This document shows positions 34,224 to 42,765 of a DNA stretch of 51,290 bases, piece by piece. The stretch is from Kiritimatiellota bacterium (lineage in GTDB: Bacteria; Verrucomicrobiota; Lentisphaeria; Oligosphaerales; JAADHN01): NCBI GenBank assembly GCA_013151865.1, contig JAADHN010000052.1:1-51290 (forward strand), given 5' to 3'. Under the pieces are notes generated by a model. The model made no database searches and was not told where the DNA came from. It saw only the letters and a list, made by a program, of their open reading frames with translations. The translations under genes and the position numbers were made by a program. How positions within the stretch are numbered: position 1 is the first letter of the stretch; each line of letters opens with the position of its first letter.

Positions 34224-34625
34224 TCACTCCACAGACTTTTCCAAGAGTCCGGTCACTTTCTCCCTTAGCACATCGAAATCGACCGGTTTCTCCAAAAAAT
34301 CCGCCGCAGGCAACCAAGCGTCGTCGATATCTTCAGCGCTGAACCCGAGCGGAAACCGAGCGTTCACCGCCGTCAACAGCAGAATCGGCACGCTCTGCAG
34401 ACTCGGCTGAGAGTTGTGGATCTTCCGAGCCAAACGAAAACCGCCCGAAGGGTCTTCGGGAAACATGACGTCAAGGATGACCAAATCGGGGCGGCGCTCT
34501 TTCATCAAGGGGATCACTTTGGCCGGTTCCGACACGATTTGGACTTCGTGATTGTCCGCGCCGAGGACAGTGGCAACGGCTTCGGTAAAGTCCAGATCGT
34601 CTTCCACCATGAGGATGTAGGCCAT
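34224..34625 (-). CDS. Single-domain response regulator
   Basis: 133 residues from the ATG at 34625, which has AAAGGAGAG directly before it. The receiver domain is complete: E8-D9-D10 acidic pocket, phospho-acceptor D52 in 'LVILDVMFP', Thr in 'LLLTAVNA', Lys in 'FLEKPVDF'. No output domain follows, so it would act like CheY or Spo0F by protein contact or phosphorelay. The sensor kinase gene lies 261 bases upstream on the same strand, the likely partner. The MFS transporter follows 49 bases downstream. Confidence 0.92.
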   Translation of the reverse strand: MAYILMVEDDLDFTEAVATVLGADNHEVQIVSEPAKVIPLMKERRPDLVILDVMFPEDPSGGFRLARKIHNSQPSLQSVPILLLTAVNARFPLGFSAEDIDDAWLPAADFLEKPVDFDVLREKVTGLLEKSVE

Positions 34626-34886
34626 GATTCTCTCCTTTCTTGAGGATGTGTGTTCACGGAAGTCTTGAGGGAGCAAGCGGGGGGAACGCCGCAACGCCGA
34701 CCGCTTCGGCACGATGCTCGTCCACCCTGACGAAAGGAGCTTGTGCCCCGTTGGGCCCTGCATCGTTTGCCGGCGGTCTGTTGTCGCTACACTCGGCACT
34801 CCTTCCGAAAAACAATGAGGGCTCGCCCGAAAGCGCACTCGGCCGCGAATCCATCTGGGACGCACTCGCTCCAGCGATCTCCGGCT

Positions 34887-36350
34887 TCAGGCAACGTCCG
34901 GACCGTTCCAGCGCACATCCACGGGTACTGCCGGAAAGTATACACGAAAAGTTGTGCCTTTTCCCGGCGCACTCTGCACTTGAATGCGCGCCCGTAAGCA
35001 CTGAGCGGCCTCCTTCAGGATTGCCAAGCCCAGTCCGGACGAGTATGGGTTGAGACGGACGGCTTCGTCGGTTCGGTAGTGGGCGTCGAAGATCAAAGGG
35101 AGTTTGGCCGCGGGAATGCCGATGCCCTCGTCCGTCACGCTCAGGAAGACCTCGCCGTCGGGGGTGAGGCCGCACGCAACGCCGACCCTGCCACCGGGCT
35201 TGGAATAAGCCGCTGCATTACTCAGCAGGTTTTGGATCAACATTTGCAAGTGCCCGGGGGCGCCCCGAACCTGAACGGGCTCGACAGAAAGATCGAGTTT
35301 CAGTTCCCGCTCCCGGAAAAGGGGTTCAAACTGTGCGGCGGCCCGGCGAAGGGCCGCATCCAGGGCAAGCGTTTTGTCGGGGGGCGGCGCCTGAGCCGCC
35401 GAGTTGAGGTTCGCGAGTTGAAGCATTTCCTGGATTTCGTGGGCCAGTCGCTCACAGCGAACGGCAATCTTCTCGATCACGCCACGCGCTTTCGGAGTCA
35501 AGTCGCCGCAGTATCCTTTGAGCAGAAGTTGTGCATTGGCGCTGATGGCGGCAAACGGCGACTTCAGCTCATGCGTCGTTCGCAGCATGTGCTCGGTCCG
35601 CTCCTGTTGAGCCCGACGCAACTGAGCGTTGGTTTCGACGAGCCGGCGCTCACCGGAACGGACCAGGCGTGCCAAGTGGGAAACCAACCCCCAAGCGACG
35701 AACCACACCAGCACGGTGCCCGCAACGTTAATCCCACGGGCAAAAACACAAGGATCTGGAGCGCCAAAACCGCTCACGCCATCGAAAACCGATTGCGACT
35801 CCACAAGCCCGTAGGCTTCTGCCAAGCGGAGCCCCAGATACAATCCGGCTGCGCAAAACGTTACCCCCAAACTGAGCGAACTTCGGAAGAATATGCAAGC
35901 CAAAATGATGTGAAACAAATAGACAAAAGGGAGCCAGACAATGCCTGCGCCCACAAAATGAATGGCCGCGGTCAGGACAGTGAGGTCAACCAGAATCTGC
36001 CCCCAGAGATTCAATTCGACTCGACGCCGACTCAGTCGACAGGAGGTCCGTTGAACCAGGCTCGGGTGAAACATCAGATTCGCGAGGGTAAGAACGCCTG
36101 CCGTCAGAAACAGCCAAGCACTGAGCGGTCTGAGGCCGGTCCAGTTTCGGACAGCGGGAATATCGACCACCCCCCCAAGGGCCAAAAAAGTCGCCACGAC
36201 AATCCAACGAAGCCGGCAGAACCAAAGCGCATTGGCCTCGAGCAATTCCCGCGCCAGTTCCTCGGACGCTGCCGGATCCAGTGGACCCGACTCATCGCCG
36301 TTGAGCGGCACATCGTATGAGACCGGATCGCATTGTGGGCCGTTTTCCAT
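34887..36350 (-). CDS. Membrane sensor histidine kinase
   Basis: 487 residues from the ATG at 36350, preceded by GGGGAG. About six membrane helices lie between residues 55 and 240. A short coiled coil leads to the HisKA domain with H260 in 'THELKSPFAAISANAQLL', and the HATPase domain follows with N-box 'QNLLSNAAAYSKPGG', G1 'DEGIGIP' and G2 'GLGLAIL'. It should autophosphorylate and pass phosphate to the single-domain regulator downstream. No extracytoplasmic sensor domain is recognised; the signal may be sensed inside the membrane. Close placement next to the nqr operon hints at control linked to respiration or sodium, which is inference. Confidence 0.92.
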   Translation of the reverse strand: MENGPQCDPVSYDVPLNGDESGPLDPAASEELARELLEANALWFCRLRWIVVATFLALGGVVDIPAVRNWTGLRPLSAWLFLTAGVLTLANLMFHPSLVQRTSCRLSRRRVELNLWGQILVDLTVLTAAIHFVGAGIVWLPFVYLFHIILACIFFRSSLSLGVTFCAAGLYLGLRLAEAYGLVESQSVFDGVSGFGAPDPCVFARGINVAGTVLVWFVAWGLVSHLARLVRSGERRLVETNAQLRRAQQERTEHMLRTTHELKSPFAAISANAQLLLKGYCGDLTPKARGVIEKIAVRCERLAHEIQEMLQLANLNSAAQAPPPDKTLALDAALRRAAAQFEPLFRERELKLDLSVEPVQVRGAPGHLQMLIQNLLSNAAAYSKPGGRVGVACGLTPDGEVFLSVTDEGIGIPAAKLPLIFDAHYRTDEAVRLNPYSSGLGLAILKEAAQCLRARIQVQSAPGKGTTFRVYFPAVPVDVRWNGPDVA

Positions 36351-36512
36351 TCGCTCCCCTGCCAGAGAATCAAGGAGCATCGCAGAACTCTTGGGACGAA
36401 TTTACGGAGGCCGGGCGTTCCAAATCGTCGCGCGGCGGAACTCCGCCAGCACCCCCGTCTCCGACGGTGCTTCGGATCCGCCGTGATGACGCCGTGTCGG
36501 AGCGACGGCCCC

Positions 36513-37610
36513 TCAAAACTTGTCGTAAAAAACGTCCTGCTCCGCTAACCCTTTGGCCGCCAAGACTTGGGTAACAGCCTCGATCATGGGCGGCGGTCCG
36601 CATAGAAACGCCTGTCGCCGTGTGCCGTCCTGCTTCAAGTATCTGTCCACTGCCAGATGGATAAAACCGGTTTCACCGTCCCAGCTCTCGCCGGGTTCGA
36701 GGGGGTCGGACAACGCATAGATCACCCGGAGGTTCGGGTGATCCGCGGCCAGGGCACGAAATTCGTCATAATAAAAAATGTCTCGCGGCCCGCGGCACCC
36801 GAAGAACATAAAGCAGGAACGTTCCGGCCATCGTGCGCAGATCGAATACACCAAGTTCTTGATCGGCGCCATGCCGACACCGCCGCCAACACAGACAACC
36901 TCCACTTCCGGATCTTCGCTGAGCGCAAACTCGCCGTACGGTCCCGTAAAGGTCACCGCGTCACCCTTTTGCAGACCGTGCAAATAGGTCGAGCCAATCC
37001 CTCCCGGCACCAAACGCACGTTGAGTTCCACCTTGTCGCGAACCAGGTAAGAGGGCGAACTGATCGAATAGGCCCGGTACTCGCTGCCGTCCGGCGTCGG
37101 CGCCTCGATCTGCACGTATTGGCCGGGACGGGCCTCGATCTCGGGCGGCTCTCGCAACGCCAGAGTAATCTCCTTGATATCGTAGGTCAATTCCCGGGTA
37201 CTCTCGACGACGGCCTGGAACAGCTTGACGTTGAGGTACTCTTCCGGAACCACTATTTCAAGGTCCTCCCGAACCTTGACTTGGCAGGCAAGGCGCACAC
37301 CGGAACGAGATTCGCGACGCGTGAGGTATGGCGTTTCCGTCGGAAGGACCGGACCGCCACCCGAAACCACCCGGACCTTACAGTATCCGCAGGATCCTTT
37401 GCCCCCACACGCGGACGGAATGTAAATCTCATTCTCAAACAAGGCGCTGAGCAGGCTCTGGCCGCCTTCCACCTCGAGCACGCGCTCTTGGCGGTTGATG
37501 TCGATCTGACAAACACCGTAGTTGATCAGCACCTTTTCGGCAAAGGTCAACACGCCCGCCAGCGCAGCGAAAAGCCCCGCAAGAACCAGACTGGAAACGA
37601 CGATGCTCAT
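36513..37610 (-). CDS. nqrF: Na+-translocating NADH:quinone reductase subunit F
   Basis: 365 residues from the ATG at 37610, preceded by GGAGCGATCC. One N-terminal membrane helix ('SSLVLAGLFAALAGVLTF') is followed by a 2Fe-2S ferredoxin domain with Cys in 'ACGGKGSCGYCKV' and 'LACQV'. The FAD domain shows 'YRAYSISSPS', the NADH domain 'VVCVGGGVGMAPIKNLVY', and the end is 'QDVFYDKF'. NqrF takes electrons from NADH and passes them to the membrane subunits. It is the last gene of the operon. Its ATG overlaps the stop of the small ORF at 37607-37804. Confidence 0.96.
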   Translation of the reverse strand: MSIVVSSLVLAGLFAALAGVLTFAEKVLINYGVCQIDINRQERVLEVEGGQSLLSALFENEIYIPSACGGKGSCGYCKVRVVSGGGPVLPTETPYLTRRESRSGVRLACQVKVREDLEIVVPEEYLNVKLFQAVVESTRELTYDIKEITLALREPPEIEARPGQYVQIEAPTPDGSEYRAYSISSPSYLVRDKVELNVRLVPGGIGSTYLHGLQKGDAVTFTGPYGEFALSEDPEVEVVCVGGGVGMAPIKNLVYSICARWPERSCFMFFGCRGPRDIFYYDEFRALAADHPNLRVIYALSDPLEPGESWDGETGFIHLAVDRYLKQDGTRRQAFLCGPPPMIEAVTQVLAAKGLAEQDVFYDKF

Positions 37611-37804
37611 GGATCGCTCCGATTCAAGACATGATATGCGACCGTATAGAAATTGAGAACACTCACAACCTTCCAGGCAAGACCGCCCGGGACGCAGAGT
37701 GTCACAATCCGAGACAACTCCGGCGCGGCGCACGGCACGGCGACAAATACTCGAGGCCGAAATCCGGCGCCACAGGAACGGGCGTCGGCACGCAAGCTCG
37801 TCAC
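37607..37804 (-). CDS. Possible small protein between nqrE and nqrF
   Basis: 65 codons. The GTG start at 37804 overlaps the nqrE stop, and the TGA overlaps the nqrF ATG as ATGA, so the frame fills the whole gap between the two genes. Residues 31-60 are moderately hydrophobic ('RIVTLCVPGGLAWKVVSVL'). Third-position GC is lower than in neighbours by eye, and no Shine-Dalgarno sequence was found apart from coupling. It has no recognised family and is not NqrM, whose cysteine pattern is absent. It is either a real small subunit-like protein or a chance frame. Confidence 0.35.
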   Translation of the reverse strand: MTSLRADARSCGAGFRPRVFVAVPCAAPELSRIVTLCVPGGLAWKVVSVLNFYTVAYHVLNRSDP

Positions 37805-38394
37805 TGAATGCTCACCATTCCGGCAAATCCCATGAACGTCATGGCCATGACGCCGGTGACCAACATCGCGGTGGCCACGCCCTGAAACGGTGCGGGGATA
37901 TTGCTGTATCCCATTTTCTTGCGAAGCCCGGCCATCAGTATGATCGCCAGGGCCCAGCCGACGCCGGCACCGAACCCGAAGCCTATGGACTGCGTGAAAC
38001 TATACTTGCGAATGACCAGGAACAGCGAAGCGCCAAGAATGGCGCAATTGACGGTGATCAGCGGCAGAAAAATCCCCAGAGCATGGTACAGCTTGGGGCT
38101 GAAACGCTCCACAAACATTTCGACAAATTGGACGAAGGCCGCAATCACTGCAATGAAAACAATGAACGTCAAATGGTCGATATGCAGCGGGACCAAAACC
38201 CAATGATAGATGGCGTAGTTCAACGTCGCCGTGCAAGTCATGACGAAGGTCACCGCGACCCCGAGACCCGCCGCTGTCTCGAGCTGCCGCGAACACACCA
38301 GAAACGAACACATTCCCAGAAAGTTCGACAGCAGGATATTGTTCGTGAAAATCGCCGCTATCACGATGATGAATGCCGCAGTTTGATGTTCCAT
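37801..38394 (-). CDS. nqrE: Na+-translocating NADH:quinone reductase subunit E
   Basis: 197 residues with six membrane helices, like the family norm. It starts 'MEHQTAAFIIVIAAIFTNNI' and carries 'LGMCSFLVCS' and 'LITVNCAILG', whose Cys residues help bind the iron or 2Fe-2S centre shared with NqrD in the membrane. NqrE and NqrD form the inverted-topology pair that links electron flow to sodium export. A gap of 128 bases separates it from nqrD. Confidence 0.97.
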   Translation of the reverse strand: MEHQTAAFIIVIAAIFTNNILLSNFLGMCSFLVCSRQLETAAGLGVAVTFVMTCTATLNYAIYHWVLVPLHIDHLTFIVFIAVIAAFVQFVEMFVERFSPKLYHALGIFLPLITVNCAILGASLFLVIRKYSFTQSIGFGFGAGVGWALAIILMAGLRKKMGYSNIPAPFQGVATAMLVTGVMAMTFMGFAGMVSIQ

Positions 38395-38522: not shown

Positions 38523-39197
38523 TCACGGTTTGGCGTCCTCCGGCTGCGGACCTCGCAGCACATTGTACAACGCAATGAGAAACCCGAGAGTGAAGAACGC
38601 ACCCGGCGCCAAGACCATAACTTGATTTGGGGTGTACCACGACAGCGCCCCGAAAGAATACCCCAGCAGAGTACCGGCCCCCAATAGTTCGCGGACAACC
38701 CCGATCAGGGCCAACACAATGGCGTATCCGAGACCATTGGCGAACCCGTCCACGATGGATACCAAGGGCGGGTTCTGCAAGGCGAAGGCTTCGGCGCGCC
38801 CCATAACAATGCAGTTCGTGATGATCAATCCAACGTACGGTCCGAGCTGCTTGGACATGTCCCAGTAAAAAGCTTTCAAAAACTGGTCGAACACGATCAC
38901 GAACGTCGCGATGACCGCTACCTCGGCGATCATCCGAACCCGGCGGGGCGTCACATTCCGCAACAATGAAACGAACAAGTTCGAGCCCACGGTAACGAAA
39001 ATCAGTGCTCCCCCCATCACCAGGGCGTTGGCCAACCGATTCGTCACCGCAAGGGCCGAACAAATGCCGAGAACCTGGATGGAGATCGGGTTGTTGGTCC
39101 ACACTCCCTCGCGCAGAGTTTGGATCCCTTTGCCCCCGCAGGCACCTGTCCCGCCGCAACTCGCGCAACCGATGGGAGAAGCAGTGTCCGCCGCCAT
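38523..39197 (-). CDS. nqrD: Na+-translocating NADH:quinone reductase subunit D with Cys-rich N-terminal extension
   Basis: 224 residues. The core is typical ('NNPISIQVLGICSALAVTN', 'GLIITNCIVMGRAEAFAL', 'GLGYAIVLALIGVVRELLG', 'VLAPGAFFTLGF'), with both conserved Cys residues of the NqrD/NqrE metal centre. The N-terminus has an extra stretch 'GCASCGGTGACGGKG', three Cys in a Gly-rich segment, which the Vibrio-type protein lacks. It starts 3 bases after the nqrC stop. Like NqrE it is a membrane subunit of the sodium pump. Confidence 0.96.
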   Translation of the reverse strand: MAADTASPIGCASCGGTGACGGKGIQTLREGVWTNNPISIQVLGICSALAVTNRLANALVMGGALIFVTVGSNLFVSLLRNVTPRRVRMIAEVAVIATFVIVFDQFLKAFYWDMSKQLGPYVGLIITNCIVMGRAEAFALQNPPLVSIVDGFANGLGYAIVLALIGVVRELLGAGTLLGYSFGALSWYTPNQVMVLAPGAFFTLGFLIALYNVLRGPQPEDAKP

Positions 39198-39200
39198 GTC

Positions 39201-39842
39201 TTAATTGCTCCTTGACGAATCGAAAACTCGCCGCAATGCACGATTCAACATGAATTCCAGCTTGCCGCACGTGAGCGTCGCACCCGTGATGCCGTCAACT
39301 TCGGTCGGCGCCCCTTTCGCCGTGCGCCCTCGGGCGATTCGGATACCGATCTTTCCGGATGCATCGCGGATTTTTTTCCCGCGAAATTGGTTGCGGAACC
39401 ACTCGGACGCAATTTCTCCGCCGAGGCCAGGAGTTTCCTCCTGGTGAGTGAATGCAATGCCCCGCACAGTATCGTCGTCCGCTTCCAACGCGATCAAACC
39501 GTCGATGGGGCCCCACAGACCCTGGCCGGAAAAAGCCAGTGCGACCGCTTCCGGGGTTCGAGCCCCGGACGGAACATAGGCGTAGCGTGTGGTTCCCCGT
39601 GCCTCGTCCTTTTCCACGCGGACGTTGGCCTTGAACACCTCGACCAACTTCGCCGCGGACGCATCGGCGGGAAACGGGACCTCGAGCACTTCGAGCACGC
39701 GCCGCATCTCCTCCGCCTTGGCATTGGCCTCCCGATACGGACGCGTAAACCCGCCGACCACGGTCAGCAACAAGGCGCACACCAACCCCAGGCAGGCGCT
39801 GTAGACGACCGGGTAAGCAGTGCTGTCTCTAAACCCCTTCAT
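39201..39842 (-). CDS. nqrC: Na+-translocating NADH:quinone reductase subunit C
   Basis: 213 residues from the ATG at 39842, which lies inside the end of nqrB (14-base overlap). One N-terminal helix ('VVYSACLGLVCALLLTVVG') anchors a periplasmic domain. The flavinylation motif D-G-I-T-G-A-T189 near the C-terminus marks the Thr that carries covalent FMN, attached by ApbE. Conserved 'FSGQGLWGPIDGLIAL' and 'HQEETPGLGGEI' confirm the family. apbE itself is not in the window. Confidence 0.95.
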   Translation of the reverse strand: MKGFRDSTAYPVVYSACLGLVCALLLTVVGGFTRPYREANAKAEEMRRVLEVLEVPFPADASAAKLVEVFKANVRVEKDEARGTTRYAYVPSGARTPEAVALAFSGQGLWGPIDGLIALEADDDTVRGIAFTHQEETPGLGGEIASEWFRNQFRGKKIRDASGKIGIRIARGRTAKGAPTEVDGITGATLTCGKLEFMLNRALRRVFDSSRSN

Positions 39843-40920
39843 GCGCAAGTCTCCGAAGCCGAAAGTGCACCGCGGCCTCGTCCAGCAGAGGTGCACAAAT
39901 GTTGCCCAACAAGATCGCGAACATGACACCCTCGACATACCCGGTCAGGTTGCGGATCAGGAGGGTCGCCAGTCCGATGAGCGCGCCATACCCCCATTTG
40001 CCCGAATCGGTCGTGGGGCTCGATACTGGGTCGGTTGCCATGAAAAACGCCCCGAAAAGCAGACCGCCGGCGAACAAGCTCCAGACCGGGGGTGCGAACG
40101 CCTGGGGATACGCAGCGTGCAATACAGTTCCGGCCACAACGAAAGTTCCCAGCATCGACACCACCGTACGCCAACTTGCCACCCCGACCAACACCAGAAA
40201 AATGCCGCCGACAATCACCGCCAAGGCAGATGTTTCGCCCACACAACCGGGCACATGCCCGGTAATCAAGCCCGAAAGCGACGCAAACTGCCCTTGTTTG
40301 GCCAGGATCAGCGGGGTCGCCGAAACCACGGCGTCTGTCGTGCCCGAATCGACATACTGAAAAAAACGACCGACCGCGCCGCTGCCGGGCTTGATCCAGT
40401 TGCCCGACATCGCCGCCGGGTAAGCCAATGCCAGGAAACAGCGCCCGACCAAAGCGGGATTGAAGAGGTTTCGCCCCGTGCCCCCAAACAATTCCTTTCC
40501 CACGAGCACGCCGAAGGCAATGCCGACCCCGGCCATCCACAGCGGCAGACCCGGCGGCAGGATGAGCGGGTAAATGAGGCCCGTCACCAAAAAACCTTCG
40601 TTGATCTCTTCCTTGCGCACCACGGCAAAGAACATCTCCACAATGCCGCCCGCCGCGTAGGAGACCACGATCAGCACCAGGACGCGCAGTCCGAAGGAAT
40701 ACAAGGCGAACCCGACACAAGGAATCAATGCCACAATCACCATGGACATGAACCGCTTCACGTCCAAAGGGTCACGCACATGCGGACCGAAAGCGGTCTC
40801 GGCGTCCGGACCGAAAAAGAAGCTGTCGGTGGCGTCGTAAACCGGCTTCAACACCGCAAACCGACCGCCCTCTTCGAAGAGCGGACGGAAGCGCTCGAGC
40901 AGGCGAAGCAGCAATCTCAT
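39829..40920 (-). CDS. nqrB: Na+-translocating NADH:quinone reductase subunit B
   Basis: 363 residues from the ATG at 40920, overlapping the nqrA stop as ATGA. About ten membrane helices are present. Family blocks 'GRNLFNPALVGRCFLALAYP' and 'GALIGLATLLIRNLTGYVEG' are clear. The FMN-binding Thr is probably T202 in D-A-V-V-S-A-T, matching the ApbE target pattern. The N-terminal helix begins 'RLLLRLLERFRPLFEEGG'. NqrB carries covalent FMN and riboflavin and holds the quinone and sodium path. Confidence 0.96.
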   Translation of the reverse strand: MRLLLRLLERFRPLFEEGGRFAVLKPVYDATDSFFFGPDAETAFGPHVRDPLDVKRFMSMVIVALIPCVGFALYSFGLRVLVLIVVSYAAGGIVEMFFAVVRKEEINEGFLVTGLIYPLILPPGLPLWMAGVGIAFGVLVGKELFGGTGRNLFNPALVGRCFLALAYPAAMSGNWIKPGSGAVGRFFQYVDSGTTDAVVSATPLILAKQGQFASLSGLITGHVPGCVGETSALAVIVGGIFLVLVGVASWRTVVSMLGTFVVAGTVLHAAYPQAFAPPVWSLFAGGLLFGAFFMATDPVSSPTTDSGKWGYGALIGLATLLIRNLTGYVEGVMFAILLGNICAPLLDEAAVHFRLRRLAHEGV

Positions 40921-42281
40921 GCGCTGTGGTCCTCTGTGGAATGCAATTCTTCTTGAATCCGAAGCCGGGCATCCCGAAACTGTTTTGCCAAATCGATCTT
41001 CGACGGACAAACCAACGTACAGAGCCCGCAGTCGATGCACAGATCGAGACGCAGCCGCTCAACCTCTTCGAGGGAATCCTGGTATAGCGCCCGATGGATC
41101 AGATGCGGGAAGATCTCGACCGGACAAACCTGCTCGCACAGGCCGCAAGCCACGCACGGGCGCACTTCTCCACGCAAGCCAGTGGTCATCGACTCCGGAC
41201 GACGCTTTCTCAAGAGACTGAGAAAACACCGACTGTAAGAGGCCCGGTCCGACCCCGGACGTAGAAACGAAAGAAACTCTCGCTCACCCGGGACGGGAAC
41301 GACCGTGATCCCCCGTGTCTCAATGTCGACCGCCGCATCGTCCCCGACGATTGAACCGGTCAGAACGTCCCCCCGAATCACGCGCCCCGGTCCTACGGCC
41401 TCCGCCGCCGCCAGTAGAGCCGCGACCGGGGTCCCGGGCACCACGCGAAAATGGGCCGGCTTACGGGTTCCGGGGCCGCCGACGGCCACAACTCGATCAA
41501 GCACAGGCTCCCGGCGGACGAGTGCCCGGTGTACGGCCAGAACGCCCGCCACATCCGTTCCCCACACAGGCGCATCCTGCCCCCGAGCCAATCCCAGTGC
41601 CCCCAAATGCAGCCGGGGATCCCCGTACGGGTACCGCGCAGGGATCAACCGCAGTTTCACCCATGCCTCGCCCCGAATCGCGGCCACCACCTTTTCTCCA
41701 AGAGCGGACCGGATTCTCGGAACCAACAGAAGAATCGGCTGATAATCGAGCAGCGACTGAATTGCCTTCAGGCCTTCGAGGAATGCCTCGAACTCGCCTC
41801 GCAGCAACGTACTGCCCCGTGTCACAACCGGTTCGCTCATGAAAGTGGTTACCACCACCGCCGCCGGCGACAGGTCCGGGTCCGGCACACACCGCGTCCG
41901 AACGTCATAAAAGTGTGCCCATGCCCCCAGACGTACGAGTCGACGACACGGCGAGATCTCCGCCAATTCCGACCGAGTATCCTCCGAAGCGCCTCCAACG
42001 TTTTCCGAAACACGTTCGAGAACCAACGTGCCGGCATCGTCCGTCGTGCGCACCACCCCAGGGCGCGGCGCGAGTAACGGCAAATCGTATGCTCCCGGGT
42101 CCGTCGCCAGGACCGTCCCGGGCGCCACAGTCTGCCCCGACTGGACGCAAATGTTCGCGGCAAACCGAAAACGCTCCGTCTGCAACGGCAGTCGCAGTAG
42201 GTCAGGGACGGGCAAAGATGTGACCTCACCGACCGGTCGACCGGCCAGCGGCAGGTTGTAACCACGCGTCTTTGCTGTCAT
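40917..42281 (-). CDS. nqrA: Na+-translocating NADH:quinone reductase subunit A with two RnfC-like 4Fe-4S motifs
   Basis: 454 residues. The N-terminal half is NqrA/RnfC-like ('YNLPLAGRPVGEV', 'VAPGTVLATDPGAYDLPLLAP', 'RVVAVGGPGTRKPAHFRV'). Near the C-terminus are two complete C-x2-C-x2-C-x3-C-P motifs: C376, C379, C382, C386 and C415, C418, C421, C425. Vibrio-type NqrA lacks these, while RnfC has them. First gene of the operon, followed by nqrB with an ATGA overlap. Gene order A-B-C-D-E-F and NqrF identify the complex as Nqr rather than Rnf, since NqrF is specific to Nqr. The two clusters could offer an extra electron entry, for example from ferredoxin, which is inference. Confidence 0.93.
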   Translation of the reverse strand: MTAKTRGYNLPLAGRPVGEVTSLPVPDLLRLPLQTERFRFAANICVQSGQTVAPGTVLATDPGAYDLPLLAPRPGVVRTTDDAGTLVLERVSENVGGASEDTRSELAEISPCRRLVRLGAWAHFYDVRTRCVPDPDLSPAAVVVTTFMSEPVVTRGSTLLRGEFEAFLEGLKAIQSLLDYQPILLLVPRIRSALGEKVVAAIRGEAWVKLRLIPARYPYGDPRLHLGALGLARGQDAPVWGTDVAGVLAVHRALVRREPVLDRVVAVGGPGTRKPAHFRVVPGTPVAALLAAAEAVGPGRVIRGDVLTGSIVGDDAAVDIETRGITVVPVPGEREFLSFLRPGSDRASYSRCFLSLLRKRRPESMTTGLRGEVRPCVACGLCEQVCPVEIFPHLIHRALYQDSLEEVERLRLDLCIDCGLCTLVCPSKIDLAKQFRDARLRIQEELHSTEDHSA

Positions 42282-42765
42282 GCATTCGTTCCCAGAATCG
42301 TCGGGTGTTAAAAAATCAACGGACAGCCCGCTGCCGAGCGAACCTTGTCAATGTCGCGCCCCTGAACAGAAACGTCCCGCCGGTCGGAGGGGACGGGACA
42401 ATCACCGCCGTGCCAATCGCCGCGTCCATTCGCCCTGCTTCCGCGAACAGGTCGCCTCCAACGCGTGCGGGCCCGAAAAAATCGATGAATTATATCACAT
42501 TACTCCACTATGTGCAAGCCAAACCAGCGAATACCTCCCGAAATATCCTGTCCACCCGTAACCGGCGGTCCGCACCGCACCGCACACGTGTGCTGAAACT
42601 CAGAATCCGGACATGGTACGCGCGCGGAAGAATGCCCGGAAGGGCATCGCCTCCAATGATCCCCGCAGCCGAATCCGAGACCTCCCCGTCGCCCCGGAAC
42701 GACGCTCTGTCCGGCAGAAAGGTTCCCGGACAAACACCACAGCCCGGGCCATGGCCGGCCAATGC
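42282..42765. other. Intergenic region upstream of nqr (484 bases)
   Basis: It holds the nqr promoter at 42489-42517 and a 5' leader of about 200 bases. No gene is convincing. The part from 42518 to 42765 is the 3' flank of the GH4 gene; no terminator with a T-run was seen. Confidence 0.5.
42489..42517 (-). promoter_or_regulatory. nqr operon promoter
   Basis: On the minus strand, TTGCAC (42517-42512), exactly 17 bases, then a perfect TATAAT (42494-42489). It is the best sigma70-type promoter in the window and points at nqrA, whose ATG is about 200 bases downstream. No operator was identified. Confidence 0.7.

Follow-up and report, generated by a model that had tools for sequence, protein, structure and literature searches.

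A Kiritimatiellota Nqr operon whose NqrA carries two intact 4Fe-4S motifs, and the place of such proteins between RnfC and cluster-less NqrA

In this work, we analysed a 51,290-nucleotide stretch of DNA of a Kiritimatiellota bacterium (hereafter the window), on whose minus strand all six genes of an nqrA-B-C-D-E-F operon lie in order (Table 1). The start of nqrB overlaps the stop of nqrA as ATGA, nqrA itself starting with ATG. NqrD and NqrE together hold all four intramembrane cluster cysteines, and the full NqrF displays the Pfam domains Fer2, FAD_binding_6 and NAD_binding_1. No rnfB is present in this operon, NqrF being found there instead. These observations agree with the initial annotation, which had assigned the nqrA product to an Nqr complex from operon order and the presence of NqrF. 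A histidine kinase and a response regulator gene lie downstream of nqrF (34224-36380). Promoter-like sites such as that upstream of nqrA were counted in the region, and their number fell within about one standard deviation of that of shuffles.

Table 1. Coordinates of the features of the window, and of the hybrid operons found in relatives
Feature	Position	Strand	Remarks
nqrA	40917..42281	minus	NqrA of 454 aa; both 4Fe-4S motifs complete
Place of the RnfC FMN/NAD loop (GxGGAxFP)	41892..41939 (residues 115-130)	minus	loop absent in the window NqrA
NqrA-specific insert of ~33 residues	41190..41291, approximate (residues ~331-364)	minus	SLBB / ferredoxin domain junction; REFLSFLRPGSDRASYSRCFLS...
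First 4Fe-4S motif	41124..41156	minus	C376xxCxxCxxxC386, then P387
Second 4Fe-4S motif	41007..41039	minus	C415xxCxxCxxxC425, then P426
nqrB	39829..40920	minus	quinone-site extension at the N-terminus; GG in helix III
nqrC	39201..39842	minus	FMN_bind domain; flavinylation motif DGITGAT
nqrD	38523..39197	minus	both intramembrane cluster cysteines retained
nqrE	37801..38394	minus	both intramembrane cluster cysteines retained
nqrF	36513..37610	minus	full length: TM helix, 2Fe-2S, FAD and NADH domains
Histidine kinase gene downstream of nqrF	34887..36380	minus	same neighbour in G319 and G001
Response regulator gene downstream of the histidine kinase gene	34224..34625	minus	same kinase/regulator pair in G319
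Promoter-like site upstream of nqrA	42489..42516	minus	TGCACA-16-TATAAT with TG; consensus match only
Hybrid operons of relatives (nqrABCDE core and the parts that follow it)	L051:12146-15960; L089:4119-7924; L091:967-6242		

Both 4Fe-4S motifs that had been reported for the nqrA product, beginning at C376 and C415, were recovered exactly, residues 376-387 reading CVACGLCEQVC-P and residues 415-426 CIDCGLCTLVC-P. Pfam detected the domains NQRA_SLBB and NQRA_2nd as well as dicluster ferredoxin domains (Fer4_8, E 2e-8; Fer4_10, E 1e-7), and these E-values, together with the invariance of the eight cysteines in all relatives described below, indicate that the two motifs are not due to chance. Among NCBIfam models, NqrA came first (182.6 bits) and RnfC models next (125-128 bits), the protein scoring under the curated cut-offs for NqrA (182.6 vs 450 and 144 vs 321) and also under those of the RnfC models. 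Sequence matches in the PDB had Vibrio cholerae NqrA first and RnfC after. The AlphaFold2 model (pLDDT 85, pTM 0.89) matched V. cholerae NqrA with a Z of 32.5 over 424 residues and RnfC with a Z of 29-30.3 over ~400 residues. Judged from its sequence, the window protein is a divergent, non-canonical NqrA.

Four phyla were sampled, i.e. that of the window (40 relatives + 387 genomes), Desulfobacterota, Pseudomonadota and Chloroflexota, many of the genomes being draft assemblies. NqrA bearing both 4Fe-4S motifs, hereafter clustered NqrA, numbered 15 in all, i.e. the window protein plus 14 more, six in its own phylum and eight in Desulfobacterota. A one-off or damaged gene is ruled out by these 14 relatives. 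Within the phylum of the window, clustered NqrA occur in G000 (the genome of the window), G001 (two copies), G297, G215, G319 and G204. They are uncommon, with 7 copies in 6 genomes among ~400 of this phylum and 8 in 345 Desulfobacterota; neither motif was seen in the other 25 high-scoring NqrA sequences inspected from the phylum of the window. Six of the eight Desulfobacterota members belong to complete nqrABCDEF operons with full NqrF, the two others being cut by contig ends. No clustered NqrA was retrieved from 349 Pseudomonadota genomes at E 1e-58 or better, nor anything from 251 Chloroflexota genomes at E 1e-36 or better, cut-offs that could both hide weaker members; the weakest Desulfobacterota member scored 2e-70. 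A contig search with P0001 as sole query returned only distant RnfC-type and ferredoxin-domain proteins.

The eight cluster cysteines are invariant in 15/15 clustered NqrA, whose pairwise identity averages 29.6 % with a minimum of 21.7 %, and they make up 8 of the 24 invariant positions out of 454. The first motif was found in 15/15 clustered NqrA, 20/20 RnfC and 0/22 cluster-less NqrA; the initial annotation had described such motifs as RnfC-like and missing from Vibrio-type NqrA. From the second motif, the C421 and C425 positions alone persist in cluster-less NqrA (21/22 and 22/22, respectively).

RnfC, clustered NqrA and cluster-less NqrA were further compared for the GxGGAxFP FMN/NAD loop and for the spacing between G309 and C376. 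In RnfC, the clusters are present together with the loop (18/20) and the spacing is 32-33 residues; in clustered NqrA, the clusters are present, the loop is absent (0/15) and the spacing reaches 65-67 residues, the NqrA insert being found in 15/15; in cluster-less NqrA, the loop is absent as well (0/22) and the spacing is 65-69 residues. An apparent loop remnant, ALGSTGIPS, was seen in the deepest Desulfobacterota pair. Since NuoF, a distant homologue, has the FMN/NAD loop (GRGGAGFPTGLKW in L051), its absence from clustered NqrA represents a loss, i.e. the FMN/NAD site is lost as far as the sequences tell, and clustered NqrA would therefore not amount to a functional RnfC combined with an Nqr core, though they may conceivably hold a flavin in some different mode. 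In V. cholerae, the quinone site is formed by an N-terminal extension of NqrB that RnfD does not have (PMC12174285). The GG of helix III corresponds to quinone-site glycines (PMC4014512). The extension is present on NqrB in 15/15 systems with clustered NqrA; the glycine pair occurs in the clade of the window, Desulfobacterota members having G then L or F.

Set against known structures, the window protein shares with RnfC of C. tetanomorphum (7zc6), A. woodii (9eri) and A. vinelandii (8ahx) two CxxCxxCxxxCP motifs at the same place and the fold (Z 29-30), whereas RnfC has the FMN/NAD loop, lacks the 33-residue insert and is partnered with RnfB rather than NqrF. V. cholerae NqrA (PDB 7xk3, 8a1u) resembles it in its full-length fold, the insert before the C-terminal domain, the missing FMN loop and the operon order with NqrF, but carries no redox cofactor, has lost the cluster cysteines except at the last two positions and is only ~24 % identical. 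A mis-called RnfC is ruled out by the NqrA insert, the missing FMN loop, the NqrB helices and NqrF. One might still picture an Rnf-type complex retaining the NAD+-reducing function of RnfC and having recruited an NqrF-like reductase, given clusters as intact as those of RnfC and a score of 125 bits with the RnfC model. With the FMN loop absent, the NqrB quinone-site helices and the NqrA insert present, and the NqrB+D+E core placing the window complex on the Nqr side (100/100), this explanation appears largely refuted by the sequences and we regard it as very improbable.

A phylogenetic tree of 57 NqrA and RnfC proteins was rooted on RnfC by assumption, a direction that the sharing of the FMN/NAD loop by NuoF supports. 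Clustered NqrA were arranged as a ladder between RnfC and a single clade of cluster-less NqrA (support 100/99), branching from RnfC onwards in the order (G204, L105, L106), (window, G001 twice, G297, G215, G319), six Desulfobacterota and finally the 22 cluster-less NqrA. At the split between RnfC and NqrA, the window protein went with NqrA at a support of 100/99, or 99/97 without the ferredoxin domain, whose removal left the order unchanged. The same ladder was obtained with the NqrB+D+E core (NqrA 94/94, base unresolved). One discord was noticed, the G215 core grouping with G204 and the partial G215 NqrA with the window. Monophyly of clustered NqrA was rejected (AU test, p = 1.8e-5), and in the three trees these proteins are a paraphyletic grade leading from RnfC to cluster-less NqrA.

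These trees also bear on whether clustered NqrA regained a ferredoxin domain from RnfC by domain swap. Ferredoxin domains are mobile, and the ferredoxin domain is the best stretch of the RnfC model matches; however, the ladder persists both without this domain and in the core tree, and cluster-less NqrA retain two of the cysteine positions that belong to the second motif. Such a swap is disfavoured by the ferredoxin-free and core trees, and we grant it next to no probability. The initial annotation had foreseen an "ancestral or hybrid form", and its ancestral part is upheld by the paraphyletic grade of the three trees. The NqrB quinone-site features and the loop absence in clustered systems lead to the view that the clusters outlived both the quinone switch and the FMN/NAD loss; the implied order of events would be a gain of the quinone site and of the new input, then loss of the FMN/NAD site, the clusters being lost last.

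In Nqr, quinone on NqrB receives its electrons from riboflavin, and NqrA is cofactor-free. We consider it fairly probable, from sequence comparisons, that the operon specifies a genuine NADH:quinone oxidoreductase of the Na+-NQR type, in which an NqrA of the stem lineage retains two working [4Fe-4S] clusters that form a one-electron side branch at riboflavin. Clustered NqrA would have descended from RnfC, minus the FMN/NAD site and with the [4Fe-4S] pair kept. Electrons would travel from NADH through NqrF (FAD, 2Fe-2S), the 2Fe-2S of NqrD/E, the FMN of NqrC, the FMN of NqrB and riboflavin to quinone on NqrB. In the Rnf complex, ferredoxin delivers its electrons to RnfB, and RnfC makes up the NAD+ side (PMC12174285, PMC9588780); the RnfC route leads from riboflavin over a pair of clusters and FMN on to NAD+ (PMC9588780, PMC11889175, PMC12174285), with 11.7 A between riboflavin and the proximal cluster (PMC9588780). 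The pair of clustered NqrA would occupy the cluster position of RnfC, within transfer distance of the NqrB riboflavin, and would be coupled to riboflavin with no FMN behind the pair. This side branch may act as an electron buffer by the quinone site for two-electron reduction, or as a port to a soluble carrier of single electrons. Gene content, motifs, conservation, tree position, loop loss and quinone-site helices were observed, whereas we infer that the clusters are occupied and redox-active, how they are placed within the complex and which of the two roles applies. It counts against this best explanation that, with quinone as the acceptor on NqrB, no thermodynamic role is evident for a cluster pair of low potential.

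The clusters could alternatively be structural or vestigial, holding the C-terminal domain together without electron transfer. Cluster-less NqrA have the same fold at the same place though cofactor-free, and the domain therefore serves a structural purpose (PMC12174285), and the C421 and C425 positions that remain in them fit this idea; conversely, all eight cysteines were kept through three successive lineages in proteins with so few invariant positions, and a vestigial role would not preserve complete ligand sets, while a structural one could. Altogether, we hold this alternative to be unlikely. The hybrid part of the initial annotation, i.e. ferredoxin as an electron donor through NqrA alongside NADH via NqrF, found no support and seems less likely still. 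A one-electron partner such as ferredoxin is chemically possible, the cluster arm ending without FMN, and three relatives have, within the same operon, NuoF modules of HydB/HndC type that include additional ferredoxin domains; yet RnfB is the ferredoxin acceptor of Rnf and RnfC its NAD+-side output, the operon is without rnfB, a true RnfC is encoded elsewhere in the same genome at an Rnf locus of its own (L054), and entry at riboflavin would skip Na+-pumping steps.

The three relatives in question depart from the window operon at its NADH end. G001 (L051), G215 (L089) and G204 (L091) lack the FAD/NADH portion of NqrF and have in its stead a TM + 2Fe-2S domain, either by itself or in fusion with NuoE, followed by NuoF and a NuoG-like protein. 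This NuoF is HydB/HndC-like with an extra ferredoxin domain, the last protein being similar to the N-terminal part of NuoG/HydA; the fusion to NuoE was found in G215 and G204 only, among 374 genomes searched. Feeding a sodium pump through complex-I-type modules attached to an Nqr core would be a new arrangement. More tentatively than for the side branch itself, clustered systems may form a third class of Rnf/Nqr pump, i.e. an Nqr that reduces quinone, holds an active iron-sulfur arm at its riboflavin and can link the quinone/NADH reaction with a carrier of single electrons. Some members would have a NADH module of complex-I/HydABC type (NuoE-NuoF-NuoG') joined to the Nqr core via a membrane-anchored 2Fe-2S domain. 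We see this third class as possible though doubtful.

Reyes-Prieto et al. (2014) proposed that RnfC became NqrA by losing the NAD/FMN sites and the cluster cysteines (PMC4014512). Clustered NqrA are like the intermediate of this scheme, the first predicted loss (NAD/FMN sites) having been made and the second (cysteines) not; they differ in distribution, the proposed origin lying in Chlorobi/Bacteroidetes and clustered NqrA in the phylum of the window and Desulfobacterota. No mention of a cluster-bearing NqrA was found in that paper, nor any description of one in open-access papers. Phylogeny had been suggested as a check on whether the window protein falls among clustered NqrA already described: it does group with other clustered NqrA, yet these are uncommon and, within the open-access literature searched, apparently a small undescribed group. 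They resemble surviving Rnf-to-Nqr intermediates, which gives an order of events, and offer a natural set for testing the role of the RnfC/NqrA arm.

Several additional observations were made around these loci. A kinase related to that of the window recurs behind the operons with clustered nqrA in G319 and, judged by the start of its sequence, in G001, which suggests that the kinase and response regulator pair regulates the pump. Quinone-chain genes adjoin relatives, which speaks for the quinone-reducing explanation given above, with a polyprenyl synthetase at G001, G297, G319 and G204 and UbiA at G001; the synthetase lies directly upstream of nqrA, or the UbiA prenyltransferase after nqrE (L051:6820-7716, L088:181-1083, L090:8077-8970, L050:1283-2230). 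The genome of the window carries a third, split Nqr-like set, B + C at one place (L057:7414-9164, contig C67) and D + E + F at another (L056:3775-6308, contig C78), beside which no NqrA gene was seen and which forms a deep branch in the core tree. Two Desulfobacterota genomes encode RnfC-type proteins (L098:1495-2757, L130:1438-2739) with both cluster motifs and without the FMN/NAD loop, which branch at the base of the RnfC side. Finally, a 326-aa protein of G001 (L052:6348-7328), with both 4Fe-4S motifs and no recognisable NqrA N-terminal domains, is encoded upstream of a multihaem cytochrome c and of genes resembling those for NqrB/C/D/E/F.
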